Below are positions 19,042 through 55,410 of a stretch of 64,000 nt of DNA, piece by piece. The stretch covers positions 1 to 64,000 of the forward strand of contig CAMXIF010000012.1 of assembly GCA_947243845.1 (NCBI GenBank), read 5' to 3'. Positions within the stretch are counted from its first letter, which is position 1. Each line of letters opens with the position of its first letter. A program made the translations under genes and the position numbers. Source of the DNA: an uncultured bacterium (lineage in GTDB: Bacteria; Bacillota; Clostridia; Lachnospirales; Lachnospiraceae). The notes under the pieces were generated by a model. It saw only the letters and a program-made list of their open reading frames with translations, ran no database searches and had not been told where the DNA came from.

Positions 19042-19063
19042 TTTTGGCCGTAATGCAACAGAA

Positions 19064-19160
19064 TAACAGGGGCGCTGGACACAAGTCCGGCTGAGATGCA
19101 GAGGTGTAATGTCACTTCCGGTCCCTTGAACCTGATCCGGGTAATGCCGGCGTAGGAAGA
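19064..19160 (+). ncRNA. TPP riboswitch (THI element)
   Basis: GGGGCGCTGGACACAAGTCCGGCTGAGATG and later CCCTTGAACCTGATCCGGGTAATGCCGGCGTAGGAA match the conserved halves of the thiamine pyrophosphate aptamer. It lies about 210 bases upstream of thiT. A hairpin (GCAGTCTG/CAGACTGC, about 19173-19195) and a GTACCGC/GCGGTAC terminator follow. This fits transcriptional shut-off of thiamine uptake when TPP is high. Confidence 0.93.
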
Positions 19161-19231
19161 ATATTCGACTTAGCAGTCTGTCTGTAAACAGACTGCGGCT
19201 ATTTGTGCAACAGAATAGATGTCGTCTTTTT

Positions 19232-21777: not shown

Positions 21778-21784
21778 AAATACT

Positions 21785-22056
21785 ATAGGCAGTGAAGGAG
21801 AAGAGTACCTTCTATTCAGGCGTCAGAGAGAATCTGTCATTGGCTGGAAACAGATTTCGCAAAGGAGGAAGGGAAGTGCGCTCCGGAGTCAGGCGAGGGG
21901 AAAGGCCGCAGGCGCGGTTTAGAGTATCTTCGTCCGGTCAGCCCCGTTACAGGCTTTGAGTGAAAAACTGCAGGCAGTTTTTAAGTAGAGTGGAACCGCG
22001 GATCAATTCGTCTCTATTTCCCACCGGGAAGGACGTATGAACCGCGTTTTTTGATG
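21785..22056 (+). ncRNA. T-box riboswitch, probably tRNA-Cys specific
   Basis: The leader contains AGAGTGGAACCGCGG (about 21987-22001), the T-box bulge that pairs with the uncharged tRNA 3' end. A terminator follows, made by CGCGG...CCGCG plus TTTTTT ending at about 22052. Stem I occupies about 21790-21900. TGC at 21877-21879, followed by a purine, is a plausible specifier, matching the downstream cysteine genes. Uncharged tRNA-Cys would relieve termination and raise cysE-cysS expression. Confidence 0.92.
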
Positions 22057-44467: not shown

Positions 44468-46084
44468 ATGAAAATTAAAAATCCGGTTCTTTCAGGCTTT
44501 CACGCAGATCCCTCTTTCATTCGGGTGGGAGATACCTATTATATTGCCAGTTCGACTTTTGAATGGTTTCCGGGAATCAGAGTCCATGAATCCAAAGATC
44601 TTGTTCACTGGAATCTGACAACCTCTATTCTTGACCGTATTGAACTGGTGGATATGAAGGGAAATCCCTGTTCCGGCGGTATCTGGGCCCCGGATCTGTC
44701 CTATGCAGACGGGAAATTCTGGTTGGTTTATACAGACATTAAAATTGTGAACGGCGCATTTAAAGACATGTATAATTATCTGACTGTGGCGGAGGATATT
44801 CATGGTCCCTGGAGTGCACCGATTTATTTGAACGGTGTGGGTTTTGACGCATCTTTATTCCATGATGAAGATGGCCGGAAGTATCTGATTCAGCAGACTT
44901 GGGATCATCGGGAGTACCATCATGCATTCCGCGGGCTGACGCTTACGGAATATGACCCGGAGGCGAAACGGCTCAAACCGGAAACGGCAAAAAATGTTTA
45001 TGAGGGAACCAGTGTTAAGTTAGTAGAAGGACCACATCTTTATAAGATTAACGGGTATTACTATATTTTTGCTGCCCAGGGAGGAACCACCTGGAGTCAT
45101 CAGGAGATTGTGGCCAGATCCAGAGAACTGTATGGTCCTTATGAAAGTGAGCCGGACGGCCCTTTTATCACTAATTTTGACACGCCGGATCATTATCTGC
45201 AGAAGCAGGGACACGGCGCGCTGGTGGAGACGCCTTCCGGGGAGTGGTACTATGCCTCCTTATGCGGACGTCCCCTGCATCATCCGACCGAAAATTACCA
45301 TGATCCCAGAGGGTGGTGTACGCTTGGACGTGAGACCAGTATTCAGAAGGTATATTGGGACGAAGCGGGCTGGCCGAGGATTGAGGGCGGACATGGTGGA
45401 CTTGTGGAAGTGGATGCCCCCCAAGATGCGATTGTGACTGAGGCGCCCGAAACCCATGCGGCGTATGATGATTTCATGGCAAAGGAATTGGACGGTGAGT
45501 GGAATACCCTGCGGGTACCCTTTTCAGAACATATGGGCAGTGTTGGCGGAGGCAGCCTTAAGCTGACAGGGCGGGGGTCTTTGTCAAATCGGTTTGACCT
45601 GTCCTTTGTAGCCAGAAGATGGCGGGATTTTATGTTTGCTGCAGTCACCAAAGTAAAATTCGATCCCTATAGCTATCAGGCGATGGCGGGGCTTGCCAAT
45701 TACTATAATAATGAGCATTGGTCGTGGATTTTTATCACCAAAGATGACAATAACAACCGGGTTATTGAAGTGGCGGAGTGTGATAACTGTAAGTACACTT
45801 CCATGCTCAAAGAAGATGCTGTGATCATTCCGCAGGACGTTGAATGGGTCTGGTTTAAGACCGTGGTGGATCATCTGGATTACTGGTATGAGTATTCCTT
45901 CGATGGAGAAGAGTGGCACAGGATTCCTGTAAAGCTGGATGCTATGGTATTGTCCGATGATTACGTGATGTCCCATTACGGCGGATTTTTTACCGGAGCG
46001 TTTGTAGGGCTTGCGGCAGTGGATTATTCCGGTTATGGCTCCGAGGCTGAGTTTGGATTTTTTGAATACCTGGTGAACGGCTAA
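44468..46084 (+). CDS. xynB: Family 43 glycoside hydrolase, beta-xylosidase type
   Basis: 538 residues, cytoplasmic (no signal peptide), ATG with TTTGGAGG upstream. GFHADPSFIRVGDTYYIASSTFEWFPG holds the catalytic base Asp of the five-bladed GH43 propeller. GIWAPDLSYADGKFWLVYTD and the VEGPHLYKINGYYYIFAA block carry the pKa-modulating Asp and the catalytic acid Glu. A C-terminal beta-sandwich (about 330-535) is typical of XynB-type beta-xylosidases. It should release xylose from imported xylo-oligosaccharides. No transporter or xylose isomerase gene is adjacent. Confidence 0.93.
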   Translation: MKIKNPVLSGFHADPSFIRVGDTYYIASSTFEWFPGIRVHESKDLVHWNLTTSILDRIELVDMKGNPCSGGIWAPDLSYADGKFWLVYTDIKIVNGAFKDMYNYLTVAEDIHGPWSAPIYLNGVGFDASLFHDEDGRKYLIQQTWDHREYHHAFRGLTLTEYDPEAKRLKPETAKNVYEGTSVKLVEGPHLYKINGYYYIFAAQGGTTWSHQEIVARSRELYGPYESEPDGPFITNFDTPDHYLQKQGHGALVETPSGEWYYASLCGRPLHHPTENYHDPRGWCTLGRETSIQKVYWDEAGWPRIEGGHGGLVEVDAPQDAIVTEAPETHAAYDDFMAKELDGEWNTLRVPFSEHMGSVGGGSLKLTGRGSLSNRFDLSFVARRWRDFMFAAVTKVKFDPYSYQAMAGLANYYNNEHWSWIFITKDDNNNRVIEVAECDNCKYTSMLKEDAVIIPQDVEWVWFKTVVDHLDYWYEYSFDGEEWHRIPVKLDAMVLSDDYVMSHYGGFFTGAFVGLAAVDYSGYGSEAEFGFFEYLVNG

Positions 46085-47418
46085 CGGTTATTTGATTTGC
46101 GATCCTGAATATACATCAGTATGCAGACGATTGCTAAGATAGCTTCCACAACAGGCTGGGCCGCGATCACGCCATTTAGTTTCCAGAGATAATTCAGGAT
46201 GATCACGCCGGGTATAAACAGGAATGCATTTCTTAACAGGGTAATGGTCAGCGATTTTACTGCTTTGCCTAAAGCCTGAAAATAACTCGTTATGATGTTA
46301 ATGATACCCAGCAAAGGAGCCGACAGACAAAGAACTTTCAAAAAGTATCCTGTCTGCTCGATCAAAGCATTGTTCTGCAGGAATACAGAGGCAAGCGCTT
46401 TTCCCAAAAGAATGAAGGCTGCAGTAAATACCGCACCGATTAGAATACCATACAGCATCGTCCATTTCACAATATCGGACATCCTTTTTTGCTCATTTGC
46501 CCCATAACAATATCCTACTAAAGGGGCAACGCCCTGTGATAATCCTACTGATAATAAAATCGGGATCATATCAAGTTTATAGGCGATTCCATATGATGCT
46601 ACCGAATCGGATCCGTAAATGCCGATATAGTTGTTGAGTACAATGTTGGAAACGCTCATAAGAACTGTAATGAGAGCGCCTGGAATACCGATACTTACGA
46701 CATTGCGTATCATCCTTGCATTGGGTGCAAAATATTTAGGAGCCAATGGTACCAATTGATTTCCCTTGTGTCCTTCATGGATCATGCAGACAATATAATA
46801 TATGGCGGCGCATACAAATCCCAGAGATGTTGCAAGGGCGGCGCCTGCAGTTCCCCATCCTAAGATGGCAATAAATACATAATCCAATACCATATTGATC
46901 ACATTTCCAAGTATCAATCCAATGGTGCCTTCTTTGATCAGGCCGATGGAACGGAACAAATGAACAAACCCGTTTGCAAGCATAATGAAAGGAGCTCCGA
47001 TAAAGATCCATTTCAGATAATCACAGGTATAGGCCATATTGTCTGCATCTGCACCGGATATTCGGGCCAGTGGATGCAGGAATGCCAGTCCCAGAACAAG
47101 AGTGATAATGCCGGCAGCTGTCATTGCATATACGCAGAAGTTCATGGCAGCGCCGGACTCTGTTCTTTTATCTTCTCCCAATAATCTGGCAATAACGCTG
47201 CTGCCTCCCATTCCGAATACACAGGCGATCGACATGATGATCAGCAGTACCGGTGCGCACAGCGTCACCGCAGCGATCGTAGCAGGTTCTTTTGTCAGGG
47301 AAACAAAAAAGGTGTCGGCAATATTATAAATAAGCGTTGTAAGCTGGCCCAGCATAGCAGGCAATCCAACTCGCATGATTGCTTTGGAAATGTTTTTTTC
47401 TTCAAAAACGGACGTCAT
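46081..47418 (-). CDS. MATE family efflux transporter
   Basis: 445 residues from ATG at 47418 (GGGAGG nine bases upstream). Twelve membrane helices are visible, in two halves with VGLPAMLGQLTTLIYNIADTFFVS in the first and SIGIPGALITVLMSVSNIVLNNYIG in the second. It overlaps the 3' end of xynB tail to tail by four bases. It is divergent from a Crp-like regulator at 47504, which probably controls it. The substrate is unknown; it is only distantly similar to the MATE protein at 14464. Confidence 0.93.
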   Translation of the reverse strand: MTSVFEEKNISKAIMRVGLPAMLGQLTTLIYNIADTFFVSLTKEPATIAAVTLCAPVLLIIMSIACVFGMGGSSVIARLLGEDKRTESGAAMNFCVYAMTAAGIITLVLGLAFLHPLARISGADADNMAYTCDYLKWIFIGAPFIMLANGFVHLFRSIGLIKEGTIGLILGNVINMVLDYVFIAILGWGTAGAALATSLGFVCAAIYYIVCMIHEGHKGNQLVPLAPKYFAPNARMIRNVVSIGIPGALITVLMSVSNIVLNNYIGIYGSDSVASYGIAYKLDMIPILLSVGLSQGVAPLVGYCYGANEQKRMSDIVKWTMLYGILIGAVFTAAFILLGKALASVFLQNNALIEQTGYFLKVLCLSAPLLGIINIITSYFQALGKAVKSLTITLLRNAFLFIPGVIILNYLWKLNGVIAAQPVVEAILAIVCILMYIQDRKSNNR

Positions 47419-47503
47419 ATTATCTTTCCTCCCTTGCAATTTTTAGCATTATAATATAAAATAAATCCCAAAAACGAGACAAATGTCCTGTTGGGAGGGG
47501 TTT

Positions 47504-48127
47504 ATGGAAAGAATCTATGATAAAAAGAGAATTGCAGACTGCATTGCCCAAAGTAAATACCATGCTGTGCTTGATTCATTAGCTATAGATTTTTATTTGA
47601 TAAAGTATGAGAAAGGTGAACTGGTATGTTCCCCTTATGAAAGCGAGCTGCTATTTAAGATTGTGGAACAGGGGGCTATAAACATCTATTTTATCCGTGA
47701 TGATGGCACCCGTTATTCCTTGTCAAACGGAACCACGGATTACTTTCTGGGAGACATGGAACTCTTTTATCCTCCAAACGGTAATATTTATGCTGAGGCG
47801 GCCGAAAGTCTGGTCTGCATTTCGTTTTCCATTGAGAAGCACAGGGAAACCCTTCTTTGCAATAATAGGTTTTTGCAGCTTATTTGCAGCAGTCTGTCAG
47901 CCAAAATCGGATCAATGACTACCATGGATGCCGCTCCTGCGTCCCTTACGGAGCGCGTAGTGTCCTATATGAAGTATAAATGCAGTGATGGAACCTTAAA
48001 GGGAATAGAGCAGGCGGCCTTTCATCTTCATTGCAGTGCAAGACAGCTTCAAAGAATTTTAAATCAATGTGAAAGTGCCGGATCAGTCAGGAAAATTGGG
48101 AAAGGGACATATAAACTTTTGCAGTAA
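47504..48127 (+). CDS. Crp/Fnr-like transcriptional regulator
   Basis: 207 residues from ATG at 47504 (GGGAGGGG upstream). The N-terminal half is a cyclic-nucleotide-binding-like beta barrel (YEKGELVCSPYESELLFKIVEQGAINIYFIRDDGTRYSL...FLGDMELF). The C-terminal helix-turn-helix spans about 160-205 (IEQAAFHLHCSARQLQRILNQCESAGSV). No cysteine cluster for oxygen sensing is present. It faces the MATE gene head to head, with 85 bases between starts. Confidence 0.85.
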   Translation: MERIYDKKRIADCIAQSKYHAVLDSLAIDFYLIKYEKGELVCSPYESELLFKIVEQGAINIYFIRDDGTRYSLSNGTTDYFLGDMELFYPPNGNIYAEAAESLVCISFSIEKHRETLLCNNRFLQLICSSLSAKIGSMTTMDAAPASLTERVVSYMKYKCSDGTLKGIEQAAFHLHCSARQLQRILNQCESAGSVRKIGKGTYKLLQ

Positions 48128-48278
48128 AATCCACAGGCTGCGAAAATGCAAGGCATGTAGCTGTTGTAATAGAGTTAGATGTGAGAAAAAGATATGGTTT
48201 GTGCCGGGAAGAAGAACAAATTGACAATCACAAACTATGTGTGTTAGTCTATTAAAAGATTTGGTAGGAGGATTTAGT

Positions 48279-48317
48279 ATGTTAATTGTTGTTGTAACGG
48301 AGAAAATTGCAAAATAA
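48279..48317 (+). CDS. Leader peptide MLIVVVTEKIAK
   Basis: A 12-codon ORF with TAGGAGG seven bases upstream, ending TAA, stands alone in the leader. The I-V-V-V stretch near the N-terminus recalls the IAVV/IFVI stall motifs of erm leader peptides, which arrest ribosomes in the presence of macrolides. Stalling here could free the antiterminator at 48402. This is inference from layout and short motif similarity; the peptide is too short for homology. Confidence 0.5.
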   Translation: MLIVVVTEKIAK

Positions 48318-48437
48318 ATATTGCAGGAAGAACCTGAGTGTGACACTCGGAGTCTGCCCGTATGTTGTCAGTGTGAACTGTCAGCATCTTCGCCTTACAA
48401 CTGCTTTATAATATGGTATTTATTTTCAAAAAGTATG

Positions 48438-48470
48438 AAAGCATGACGGCATGGTTGTGCTTTTTCTTTT
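48438..48470 (+). terminator. First leader terminator
   Basis: AAAGCATGAC (48438-48447) pairs with GTTGTGCTTT (48454-48463), including G-T wobbles, then TTCTTTTT. It lies about 185 bases ahead of the ABC ATPase start and would block read-through unless antiterminated. Confidence 0.7.
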
Positions 48471-48504
48471 TGAAAGGGAAGATTCGCTATAGAAAGATGA
48501 TAGA

Positions 48505-48545
48505 CCATGGTAGCATTGCTTGTCGGGCTGCCATGGCCTTTTTCG
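48505..48545 (+). terminator. Second leader terminator
   Basis: CCATGGTAGC (48505-48514) pairs with GCTGCCATGG (48527-48536) with one wobble and is followed by CCTTTTT. A weaker CCTGC/GCGGG hairpin with TTTTT lies at about 48549-48574. Tandem terminators inside a leader are unusual. Confidence 0.6.
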
Positions 48546-48654
48546 TATCCTGCGAAGCCAGCAGCGGGTTTTTGTAAGGTTTCAGGATTCTCTGTTTAGT
48601 GACAGAGAGCAAAGAGTAAAACAAAAATTATTATTAGAGAGAGGAACCAAATAC

Positions 48655-49650
48655 ATGAATGATATCGTAATCCATACAGAGAATTTAGTAAAAACCTATC
48701 GAAGATACAAGAAGGCAGAAGGACTCTGGGGCAGTATAGCCAGTCTCTGGAAACGAAACTATGAAGAAAAGACTGCGGTAAACCGCATGGATTTATCTGT
48801 CAGGGAAGGCGAGTTTATCGGACTGATCGGTCCTAACGGCGCCGGAAAGACCACACTAATCAAGATGTTGACGGGAATTATTGCGCCTACGGACGGGAAG
48901 ATTGATGTGCTTGGATATTATCCGAACGATCTGCAAAACGAATTTAAGAAACAGTATGCCGTAGTGATGGGACAGAAGAGCCAGCTGTTTTTTGAACTTA
49001 CCGTCAATGATACCCTGCGTCTGTTTAAGGAGATTTATGAGATTTCAGAGCAGGAATTTCAGAGGAACAAACATTATTTCGTAAAGCTGTTTGGCGTTGA
49101 GGAATTGATGGATGTGCAGGTCAGGACACTGTCGTTGGGTGAAAGGATGAAGATGGAGTTGATTGTTGCCTTACTGCATAATCCCAGGATTCTGTTTCTG
49201 GATGAGCCAACGATTGGTTTGGATGCGGTGGCAGCGAAACAGATTCGCGCCTTTTTAAAGGAAATCAATGAGAAAAACGGTACGACCATTCTTCTGACTT
49301 CACATTATATGGAAGATATTCAGGTGTTATGTCAGAGAACGGTTGTCGTCAACCATGGTGTGAAGATTTATGATGGTTCCACAGAGGAACTGTTTGACAG
49401 ATATCAGAAGAATAAAAGGATTATTGCATCCTTCGGGAAACCGATGAGAAAACTCCTTCTGGAAACAAAGGATGCCCGGTTGGCGGAAGATACACCCTAC
49501 AAAAAAGTATATGAGGTGCCCAGGGAGTCGGCCAGATGGTTATTGGCAGAGTTGATGAAATATGAGCCAGGAGATATTGTGGTGGAAGAAGAGGAGATTG
49601 GCGTCATTGCAGAGCGGATTTATCAGGAAGGGAGTGAATATCTTGGGTAA
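48655..49650 (+). CDS. ABC transporter ATP-binding protein
   Basis: 331 residues from ATG at 48655; the open frame begins at 48520 within the leader hairpins. Walker A is GPNGAGKTT, the signature is TLSLGERMKMEL (LSGGQ degenerated to LSLGE) and Walker B is ILFLDEPTIGLD, followed by the switch His in LLTSH. A C-terminal extension (about 245-331) is typical of exporters paired with ABC-2 family permeases. It overlaps the first permease gene by 8 bases. Confidence 0.93.
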   Translation: MNDIVIHTENLVKTYRRYKKAEGLWGSIASLWKRNYEEKTAVNRMDLSVREGEFIGLIGPNGAGKTTLIKMLTGIIAPTDGKIDVLGYYPNDLQNEFKKQYAVVMGQKSQLFFELTVNDTLRLFKEIYEISEQEFQRNKHYFVKLFGVEELMDVQVRTLSLGERMKMELIVALLHNPRILFLDEPTIGLDAVAAKQIRAFLKEINEKNGTTILLTSHYMEDIQVLCQRTVVVNHGVKIYDGSTEELFDRYQKNKRIIASFGKPMRKLLLETKDARLAEDTPYKKVYEVPRESARWLLAELMKYEPGDIVVEEEEIGVIAERIYQEGSEYLG

Positions 49651-50437
49651 ATATCTTGAAGTTACCAAAACATATATGAAGACACAGCTGGTATGGAGAG
49701 CCGATGTGATATTGAATATGGTTTTTACGGTCACCAAAATTATTTTTGCCTATCTTTTATGGAAGATGGTTTTTCAACAGAGAGAAATGGTGGGAGAATT
49801 TACATTTCATGGCATGATGTCATATTATATCATCAGTTCGTTTTTGTCACAATTGGAGATGTCAGAGGGAATCGGCAGAGAGATTCATGAGAGGATACGC
49901 AATGGCACATTTTCCAAATATTTAATCATACCGGTTGGGATAGAGAAGTATTTTATGGCCATGGAACTGGGAATTGTCCTGTTTTATGTGGTATTTGATT
50001 TTATCGCCGCTATGGTGTGGGTCTTTATATTCCGGATTCAGTTTGTGTTTGCTGCGGACAACGGGGTGATTGTATGTGCGGTGGTAATGGCGGTTCTGGG
50101 CATGGTTTTTATGGTACAGTTACATTATTTTCTGGGGTTGTTAACGTTAAAATATCAGGGGATTGGCACCTTCTTGATGATTAAAAATAACCTGATGGCG
50201 CTCGTCACAGGTACGATCATTCCGCTTGCGCTATTTCCGGAAGGGATTGTAAAGATGATGCGGCTGCTGCCTTTTTATTATGTCATATATCTTCCGGCTA
50301 TGTTATTGAGCGGAAAGTGTGAGGAGGAAGCCTGGACGGGACTGGCGGCGATCGTCTGCTGGTGTCTTGTCATGCAGTTTATCATCCATGGTACCTGGAA
50401 GAAATATCTGAGAAAGTATGACGGGGTGGGAATATGA
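49643..50437 (+). CDS. ABC-2 family transporter permease
   Basis: 264 residues from TTG at 49643 (GGGAG eight bases upstream), overlapping the ATPase stop. Six membrane helices are visible, with a cytoplasmic N-terminal segment starting GKYLEVTKTYMKTQLVWRADVIL, typical of DUF990-type (ABC2_membrane_6) permeases. With the next gene it would form a heterodimeric export channel. The substrate is unknown; the family includes putative antibiotic and peptide exporters. Confidence 0.88.
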   Translation: MGKYLEVTKTYMKTQLVWRADVILNMVFTVTKIIFAYLLWKMVFQQREMVGEFTFHGMMSYYIISSFLSQLEMSEGIGREIHERIRNGTFSKYLIIPVGIEKYFMAMELGIVLFYVVFDFIAAMVWVFIFRIQFVFAADNGVIVCAVVMAVLGMVFMVQLHYFLGLLTLKYQGIGTFLMIKNNLMALVTGTIIPLALFPEGIVKMMRLLPFYYVIYLPAMLLSGKCEEEAWTGLAAIVCWCLVMQFIIHGTWKKYLRKYDGVGI

Positions 50438-51294
50438 AGAAAAATGATAAGAGAAGCGGGAAGAAGGCAAAAACAGATATAAATGTAAATAGGAAGAGAA
50501 CTATAAAGAAAAACATGTGTGTGCTGCGGGAATTGTTTTATTTGCGGATGCATGGGCTGATGGTGTTCCGACTGGATTTTTTGGCACCTTTCTTTGTTGA
50601 CGGTTCTCTGTTCGTGATCCAGTTATTGGCATTTGGGGCGGTCTACAGCCATGTGGATGTCATCGGAGGCTGGGGAAGGGGTGAGATGATACTGTATATT
50701 GGGACCTTTTCCCTGCTAAACGCCGTAAATATGACAGTCTATTTCTTTGGTGTCAACAGCATACCCTATAAAGTCAGGTCGGGGGAGTTGGATCTGTATT
50801 TATCAAAACCTGTCAGCCCTTTGTTTCGCCTGACTTTTGAGAATATCAGTCCGGGTTCTGTGCCCCTGATTCTGATGAGCCTCTGTATCGTGGCGTATGG
50901 GATCTGTACATTGCGTATGCCGCTTACGCTGCCGGTAGTTATCAGCTACGGTTTTTGGGTACTTGTGATGACTGTCCTGTATTATGAACTGGAAGTGGTC
51001 ATCCGATCCGTTTCTTTATATGTGGTATCCATGGCTCGTCTGGAACAGATTGAGGAGGCTGGCCTTGAACTGTGCATGAAGTTGCCGGGAATTGCCTTTT
51101 ATGGTGTGTATAAGGTGATTTTTTATCTGATTCTGCCGTATGGGATTATGGCCACCCTGCCGGTGCAGAGCATGATAGGGGAAATGAATCTGCAGACAGC
51201 TGCCTATGGAATCGGGGTGGTGGCTCTGTTTACCGCAGTCACGGCAGCTTTGTGGACGCAGGGACTAAAGCATTATAACAGTGCAAGCTCATAA
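50434..51294 (+). CDS. ABC-2 family transporter permease, second subunit
   Basis: 286 residues, ATGA overlap with the previous gene. A basic N-terminal extension of about 28 residues precedes the conserved VLRELFYLRMHGLMVFRLDFLAPFF start, so translation could also begin further in. Six helices follow, with SGELDLYLSKPVSPLFR between helices 2 and 3, the conserved loop of this family. It is the last gene of the exporter operon. Confidence 0.86.
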   Translation: MKKNDKRSGKKAKTDINVNRKRTIKKNMCVLRELFYLRMHGLMVFRLDFLAPFFVDGSLFVIQLLAFGAVYSHVDVIGGWGRGEMILYIGTFSLLNAVNMTVYFFGVNSIPYKVRSGELDLYLSKPVSPLFRLTFENISPGSVPLILMSLCIVAYGICTLRMPLTLPVVISYGFWVLVMTVLYYELEVVIRSVSLYVVSMARLEQIEEAGLELCMKLPGIAFYGVYKVIFYLILPYGIMATLPVQSMIGEMNLQTAAYGIGVVALFTAVTAALWTQGLKHYNSASS

Positions 51295-55206: not shown

Positions 55207-55223
55207 AAATTCAATATTATAGA

Positions 55224-55390
55224 GTTTGATAGAGGTTGCGTTTTTTATCAGTAGGGATGCAGATGCGGCAGGAGCAGGGGAAGCGTCAAGAAAGGAAAAG
55301 ACGCCGAAAGGGGAGCCGCCTGTTCGTCTCTGCCTTGGGCATACAGTTAAGAGCTGTATGACTGTCATCTTTCGATGGGGCGCTATCCAG
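55224..55390 (+). ncRNA. Lysine riboswitch (L-box)
   Basis: GATAGAGGTTGCG, ATCAGTAG, GTCAAGAAAGGAAAAGACGCCGAAAGGGGAGCCGCC, then TTGGGCATACAG and TGACTGTCATCTTTCGATGGGGCGCTATC reproduce the conserved parts of the lysine aptamer. A terminator follows at 55411. High lysine should end transcription before dapA. The ordered 5' and 3' GATAG/CTATC ends close the P1 stem. Confidence 0.93.
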
Positions 55391-55410
55391 ACCAGAAATG
55401 GCAGACTATG

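Follow-up and report, generated by a model that had tools for sequence, protein, structure and literature searches.

The DNA analyzed here, referred to as the window, is a stretch of 64,000 nucleotides from an uncultured bacterium of the family Lachnospiraceae. Between positions 48266 and 48544 it carries a ribosome-binding site, a 12-codon open reading frame (ORF), three hairpins, an antiterminator segment and two terminators, upstream of an operon that encodes an ABC exporter (Table 1). The ATPase gene of this operon starts 337 bases past the stop codon of the leader ORF, beyond both terminators, and two PF06182 permease genes follow it. A first-pass annotation of the same DNA had proposed an attenuator with its own promoter, a leader ORF with a ribosome site, two tandem intrinsic terminators and the exporter as target. 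The ribosome site and ORF can be read directly from the sequence, and the terminators and the exporter genes lie where they had been placed. The promoter is the weak point of the window copy, as the -35 box is perfect while the best -10 candidate is poor, and the scan that gave the terminators did not list it; the relatives described below have better promoters, with scores of at least 10 of 12 in 73 of 90 leaders vs 3 of 90 shuffles. We found three terminator-like hairpins in positions 47400-48800, compared with 1.2 ± 1.2 in shuffled sequences, the third being on the opposite strand within the ATPase gene. The predicted folding of the 408-base leader was 5.4 standard deviations below that of dinucleotide shuffles, none of 100 shuffles being as low.

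Table 1. Positions in the window of the leader elements and of the exporter genes behind them, with the basis of each assignment.
Feature	Position	Strand	Basis
-35 box TTGACA, perfect	48221-48226	+	read from sequence
Best -10 candidate TGTTAG, poor (9/12)	48242-48247	+	motif scoring
Ribosome-binding site AGGAGG	48266-48271	+	read from sequence
Leader ORF, MLIVVVTEKIAK-stop, ATG at 48279	48279-48317	+	sequence and relatives
Helix P0, 5′ strand, in ORF codons 4-9	48288-48304	+	RNAalifold, swap test, covariation
Hairpin P1, around the stop codon	48307-48325	+	RNAalifold, covariation
Hairpin P2	48325-48359	+	leader folding; by eye in relatives, unscored
Hairpin P3	48360-48387	+	RNAalifold, covariation
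Helix P0, 3′ strand (CTTCGCCTTACAACTGC)	48388-48404	+	RNAalifold, swap test, covariation
Antiterminator segment GCTTTATAATATGGTAT	48403-48419	+	swap test, folding with masks
Terminator 1 (hairpin 48437-48464)	48437-48470	+	terminator scan
Terminator 2 (hairpin 48525-48539)	48502-48544	+	terminator scan, folding, swap test
ABC exporter ATPase	48655-49650	+	PF00005; nearest NCBIfam model drrA, below its cut-off
Permease 1, TTG start (chosen by us)	49643-50437	+	PF06182 ABC2_membrane_6
Permease 2	50434-51294	+	PF06182 ABC2_membrane_6

Just 5′ of the leader, positions 46081-48127 hold a MATE-family exporter gene on the minus strand and a possible Crp/Fnr-like regulator, a candidate with a weak cNMP-binding match below the cut-off that may control the MATE gene. 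Elsewhere in the window, Rfam matches over the gathering score were obtained for a TPP riboswitch (19058-19176) and a T-box leader (21783-22018), and an ordinary lysine riboswitch (94.8 bits, 55222-55393) lies just upstream of a gene at 55398 that, from its protein sequence, we take to be dapA-like. All three elements are outside the leader.

A DNA search of the same genome revealed a second copy of the leader, 72% identical, with the ORF MLSVIVMENSAK. Its neighbor gene encodes a 635-residue relative of MutS2 that lacks the Smr domain, hereafter short MutS2. The leader model found no third leader in this genome. When the DNA search was extended to 200 genomes of the family, 35 had any match. 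Ten clear relatives were obtained besides the genome's own copies, nine of them preceding short MutS2 and the tenth (L006) preceding its first codons at a contig edge; the remaining matches among the 35 genomes were short, partial and mostly uninspected. Scanning named genomes with a sequence pattern yielded 73 loci, mostly labeled Lachnospiraceae, whose first gene was short MutS2 in 51, an ABC exporter of the window type in 10, a methyltransferase in two (L058 and L101), a GNAT piece in one (L036; it shares 65% identity with the GNAT in locus L155 below), a two-component gene in two (L098 and L105) and unclear in one (L090), while six ended too soon. Because codons 6-13 and P1 are part of the scan pattern itself, their conservation in the 73-locus set is circular, and for conservation we rely on codons 1-5 and on the model sets. 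One leader list, and no other, omits ten of these loci, which had no clean end; L064, which has masked bases in the leader, was omitted from the alignments. The two two-component cases have no obvious role in resistance and may reflect either rearrangement or true targets: in L098 the leader lies 867 bases before a response regulator with an HD domain, and in L105 it lies 514 bases before a hybrid histidine kinase.

Covariance models gave a consistent picture. Model R1, built on ten leaders, matched 36 of 397 family genomes at E-values up to 0.01, and each of the matches inspected, down to E 0.0017, had a leader ORF and a target gene. The wider model R2 gave 55 matches at E-values up to 0.1 in 48 of the 397 genomes, including the window's own. 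Two of these end at a contig edge; the 53 readable first genes were short MutS2 (40), the exporter ATPase (9), GNAT (3) and a methyltransferase (1), counts that include an ATPase cut short in L152, a short MutS2 lying 1.1 kb away in L165, a broken one in L159 and the one in L006, visible only at its start. The exporter named as target by the first-pass annotation therefore holds for the window but represents a minority among the copies, the main target being short MutS2. Some loci combine targets. In L148 and L158 a single leader heads a row made up of the ATPase, both permeases and short MutS2; in L155 a GNAT gene precedes short MutS2, and in L162 a methyltransferase gene does. The co-occurrence of exporter and short MutS2 behind one leader suggests that they belong to one response.

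The association was also examined from the side of the genes. A search with short MutS2 in 150 family genomes gave 33 genes at 47% identity or more, and we scanned 30 such loci. In 18 of them R2 matched upstream, on the correct strand, at E < 0.01; eight more had a match at E 0.01-2, in the right place and insignificant alone. Among the four without an R2 match, L191 lies behind a leader-bearing ABC operon, L204 is at a contig edge, L193 has the short ORF LLIASNYGI when inspected by eye, and L210 showed no leader by R2 or by eye. With the window ATPase as query at E up to 1e-90, 150 genomes yielded the window and two others, both with the leader. Most leaders come from the window's family, and other families of the order and class have them at a low rate. 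In a class-level sample, 5 of 391 genomes matched at E up to 0.1, two of them from the same family; of the three matches from other families, two precede a MutS2 relative and one is on a short contig piece. In an order-level sample, 10 of 295 genomes matched at E up to 0.05, five being of the same family. One strong match (G913:C124:8367-8534, E 1.6e-25) comes from a different family within the order and may reflect horizontal transfer. Two sampled genomes of the same genus had no leader by R2, and gain and loss of the leader therefore look frequent. A plasmid collection gave no DNA match, and viral contigs gave no match to the leader pattern.

RNAalifold analysis of ten leaders predicted, together with P1 and P3, a long-range helix (P0) in which codons 4-9 of the ORF pair with a distal block, CTTCGCCTTACAA..GC. 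In an alignment of 55 leaders (A4), chosen for diversity and within a length limit from 91 model matches, two-sided changes occurred in 19 of 28 pairs. There were 112 two-sided cells vs 23 ± 6 in shuffles, and 93% of cells were paired vs 31-41% with slid partners; A4, like A3, was fitted to the model structure, and kinship among the leaders inflates such covariation counts. The unfitted alignment of ten leaders (A2) had 21 two-sided cells vs 6.4 in shuffles and further pair types that 44 of 500 shuffles reached, numbers counted on the very structure that this alignment had supplied. At P3, two-sided changes were seen among relatives at all 8 pairs. A terminator-like hairpin lies between ORF and gene in 92 of 95 leaders, compared with 34 of 94 shuffled ones. 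Conservation, pairings, terminators and gene linkage were all computed directly from these sequences. They show that the leader is real and conserved, which confirms the original observation, and the sequence half of the comparison by which the first-pass annotation could be refuted, namely whether ORF and pairings are conserved in homologous operons, left the claim standing.

A conserved structure of this kind might also belong to a riboswitch or a protein-binding leader, in which a junction formed with P1, P2 and P3 binds a metabolite or regulator and the ORF is a by-product. P0, P1 and P3 do make a junction, P3 covaries strongly, and the blocks GTCTGCCC and TTCGCCTTAC are conserved. However, P3 is absent in L060, L084 and L090, and in L042, L050, L085, L089 and L100 the P2/P3 middle is replaced by longer, differing inserts while the ORF and the CCTTAC strand are kept. 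A ribosome-site-like motif precedes 93 of 96 ORFs (starts were partly picked by this motif, and no chance level accompanies the count). In addition, Rfam gave no match in the window leader at the gathering score, only chance matches at E-values up to 5, and zero matches in nine relatives. We consider a ligand- or protein-binding leader improbable.

Directly 3′ of P0 lies the antiterminator segment, which in many relatives is close to GCTTAATATTGTGGTAT. The first-pass annotation had paired it with the first terminator, and the complementarity of TGCTTTATA and TATGAAAGCA is indeed present in the window at 48402-48410 and 48434-48443. Over 54 leaders this pairing was better than in shuffles (-7.5 vs -5.3 kcal/mol), but the partners do not match leader by leader (own -7.5 vs swapped -7.4 kcal/mol, p = 0.28), and we rejected it as the switch. 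The favored partner is the 5′ arm of terminator 2, ACCATGGTA in the window. In swap tests, which used the 53 distinct leaders of 96 that contained both a terminator-2 pattern and the TTAC block, the antiterminator paired with its own arm at -10.9 kcal/mol, with swapped arms at -10.0 and with shuffled segments at -5.5 (0 of 2,000 permutations as low), and the own arm beat the swapped mean in 37 of 53 leaders. The ORF and the P0 3′ strand behaved similarly (own -14.8, swapped -13.0, shuffled -9.4 kcal/mol; 0 of 2,000 permutations as low). The swap tests support, but do not prove, both pairings, as kinship inflates them. The competitor of the antiterminator is predicted to be P0, the long-range helix that involves the leader ORF, a pairing absent from the first-pass annotation.

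We then asked how a ribosome on the ORF would affect this competition by folding 52 leaders as transcripts that stop where the 5′ arm of terminator 2 is complete, which is when the decision falls; these are equilibrium rather than co-transcriptional predictions. In free folding, P0 forms and the pairing of antiterminator and terminator 2 has a mean probability of 0.20. With codons 1-8 masked, the mean was 0.49, the value being higher in 42 of 52 leaders, lower in 4 and the same in 6; for the window leader it rose from 0.02 to 0.56. With the stop codon masked the mean was 0.21, with a rise in 6 of 52 leaders, and with a control mask of the same length in P2/P3 it was 0.22, with a rise in 7 of 52. 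Since masking codons 1-8 frees the antiterminator and masking the stop codon does not, the switch should sense early stalls and not the end of the ORF.

We consider it likely that the leader is a transcription attenuator that senses ribosomes and is released when they stall early. In unstressed cells, the leader ORF would be translated quickly and the ribosome released, upon which the ORF RNA (codons 4-9) would pair with the distal CCTTACAA..GC segment to form P0. The adjacent antiterminator would then be unavailable, and RNA polymerase would halt at terminators 1 and 2. A ribosome stalled in about the first eight codons would instead block P0, and the antiterminator, now free, could pair with the 5′ arm of terminator 2 and, with less specificity, with the terminator 1 flank as well. 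Transcription would then proceed into the operon, encoding the ABC exporter in the window and short MutS2 in most relatives. The attenuator logic of the first-pass annotation is supported by the terminators, pairings and conservation that were found, with the partner of the antiterminator revised and its competitor added.

The contribution of the leader peptide is harder to separate from that of the RNA. The ORFs of the relatives have 10-14 codons. Among 59 distinct 12-codon ORFs, codon 1 is M or L, codon 2 is L or S, codon 3 is mostly S, I or N, codon 4 is mostly V and codon 5 is mostly I or V. All four third bases occur in codon 4, which is GTN (GTG 27, GTA 11, GTT 11 and GTC 2 of 59), and this third base covaries with the base opposite it in P0; at codon 5, the first base and its P0 partner occur as A-U (25), G-U (9), G-C (6), U-A (6) or unpaired (4). 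As judged from these sequences, codon conservation in the main set is confounded with RNA pairing. The first-pass annotation had likened an IVVV stretch in the window peptide to IAVV and IFVI, named there as stall motifs of erm leader peptides. This comparison did not hold up, as IVVV occurs in 4 of 96 leader peptides and codons 3-5 are variable; what is conserved is neither the IVVV motif nor the terminator-1 pairing. A translational attenuator of the erm type was likewise rejected, since the downstream gene encodes an ABC ATPase and not an rRNA methylase with a sequestered ribosome site.

In distant copies the ORF is strongly altered (LLIASL, LLIASEYGA, MLSVVGE, MLSVVIN, LLSVSIVE) and the peptide start nevertheless recurs. 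The start NTGTTAA[GT][CT]G[CT] was present in 9 of 14 distant short-MutS2 upstream regions, compared with 0.12 expected in all, a count that gives support but not proof because the pattern was widened after some of the sequences had been viewed. Three leaders of distant short-MutS2 genes begin with LLIAS (L216, LLIASNYGI; L218, LLIASL; L219, LLIASEYGA) and may form a sister leader class. A P0 helix in these copies was better than the shuffle mean, but 11, 29 and 17 of 200 shuffles, respectively, were as low, too many for a new P0 to be established. Both peptide and RNA may matter, with the peptide start serving stalling and the remainder serving pairing.

These peptide data also bear on what is sensed. 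The short ORF, competing hairpins and terminator, and a peptide start rich in valine and isoleucine, are what one would look for in a classical amino-acid attenuator that responds to shortage of one charged tRNA. Such an attenuator is very hard to reconcile with the absence of any single-codon run, with codons 3, 5 and 10 that change amino acid freely, and with 53 readable first genes that include no biosynthetic or tRNA-synthetase gene, and we give it hardly any weight. A variant of early-stall attenuation is that the leader monitors the rate of translation in general, any slow-down in early elongation being the signal and genes of translation quality the targets. The main target is related to a ribosome-splitting factor, MutS2, and the variable ORF end implies no strict nascent-chain code, as this variant would have it. 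However, an exporter would presumably be useless for stalled ribosomes unless a drug had caused the stall, and the start M/L-L-S/I-V/A returns in distant copies despite differences in their later codons. We regard a general rate sensor as rather unlikely, though less so than the ligand-binding or amino-acid alternatives.

Short MutS2, the main target, scored 536 bits against the MutS2 model TIGR01069 (cut-off 400), covering model positions 3-511 of 790 only, with the Smr end missing; Pfam recognized MutS_V only, and NCBIfam files the protein simply under MutS2. The same genome also encodes a full-length MutS2 of 791 residues. The core of the short form aligns with MutS2 on collided Bacillus subtilis ribosomes (PDB 7qv3, 8qpp), from which it differs in lacking the Smr domain, and it seems to lack the stretch that links ATPase and KOW. 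Its C-terminal region aligns weakly at the KOW position, where the AlphaFold model has a mean pLDDT of 39, and an earlier fold model was confident to about residue 511 only. MutS2-like proteins of 34-40% identity occur in three plasmid records. PADLOC matches of two proteins that we examined were generic ATPase matches.

According to the account in PMC10897456, B. subtilis MutS2 uses its ATPase to split stalled ribosomes, and cells without mutS2 are hypersensitive to chloramphenicol, tetracycline and erythromycin, and not to beta-lactams. For these reasons a drug-stalled ribosome would be a natural signal for the leader of a MutS2 paralogue, and the exporter as a second target fits this signal. 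Ribosome-targeting drugs probably release the attenuation, the likely natural signal being one that halts ribosomes in early elongation, and short MutS2 may itself split ribosomes. Stalling, read-through, the drug signal and the function of short MutS2 are the elements that we infer. A broader proposal, which we would place a little short of an even chance, is that Lachnospiraceae and their relatives use a family of early-stall attenuators, common to unrelated genes, to run a small ribosome-stress regulon, in which the Smr-less MutS2 paralogue would be an inducible factor for clearing ribosomes stalled by drugs, the MutS family's counterpart to the ARE ABC-F proteins, alongside the exporter, GNAT and methyltransferase. 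If so, gut commensals would respond to stalled ribosomes in an inducible and as yet undescribed way, joining an exporter to a dedicated, ribosome-rescue-like ATPase, and the leader would point to a MutS-family protein as a possible antibiotic-response or ribosome-rescue factor. The leader could also serve as a simple reporter of which drugs are sensed.

Several known systems share parts of this design. One is the bmrBCD ABC exporter operon of B. subtilis, which, as described in PMC4191407, is induced by 50S-targeting drugs in a manner that needs translation of the bmrB leader. It resembles the window in having a translated short ORF, alternative hairpins and a terminator ahead of an ABC exporter; however, by that description its terminator lies inside the bmrB coding sequence, whereas here the ORF, the antiterminator and the two terminators are separate, the permeases are of PF06182 and the leader is common to short MutS2, differences that set the two apart by description. 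The MsrDL leader peptide of msrD (MYLIFM) is likewise short and hydrophobic and precedes an intrinsic terminator, and PMC10314930 reports that a drug-stalled ribosome permits read-through, with the stall at the stop codon; in contrast, our folding predicts little effect of a ribosome at that position. The uORFs of CplR and VmlR, in the account of PMC10201436, work in clostridia and bacilli through a ribosome that stalls on a short uORF, and they too control a ribosome-acting ATPase, but their consensus starts are MR[I/M] and MIN and their targets are ABC-F proteins, whereas most peptides of the present leader begin with ML[SI]V and its main target is a MutS2-type ATPase. A structured uORF candidate before a ribosome-rescue gene, with a proposed stall response, is described in PMC8632094 as uORFC-6-1; its target is hflX and its occurrence mostly in Bacillales, which by description sets it apart from the window leader, and the main text of that paper mentions neither mutS nor Lachno. 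The topAI-yjhQ uORF of Escherichia coli, as described in PMC12121999, senses several ribosome-targeting drugs and differs in target and organism. Our searches of the open-access PMC literature found no paper on this leader or on a MutS2 leader of such kind. That a leader ribosome stalled by a drug can control an ABC exporter through attenuation is already known from bmrBCD, and the logic is also seen in msrD and cplR. Although this logic is known, neither the Rfam nor the literature searches gave a match, and the leader described here, which is common to short MutS2, exporter, GNAT and methyltransferase genes, therefore appears from sequence comparison to be an undescribed family of its own.
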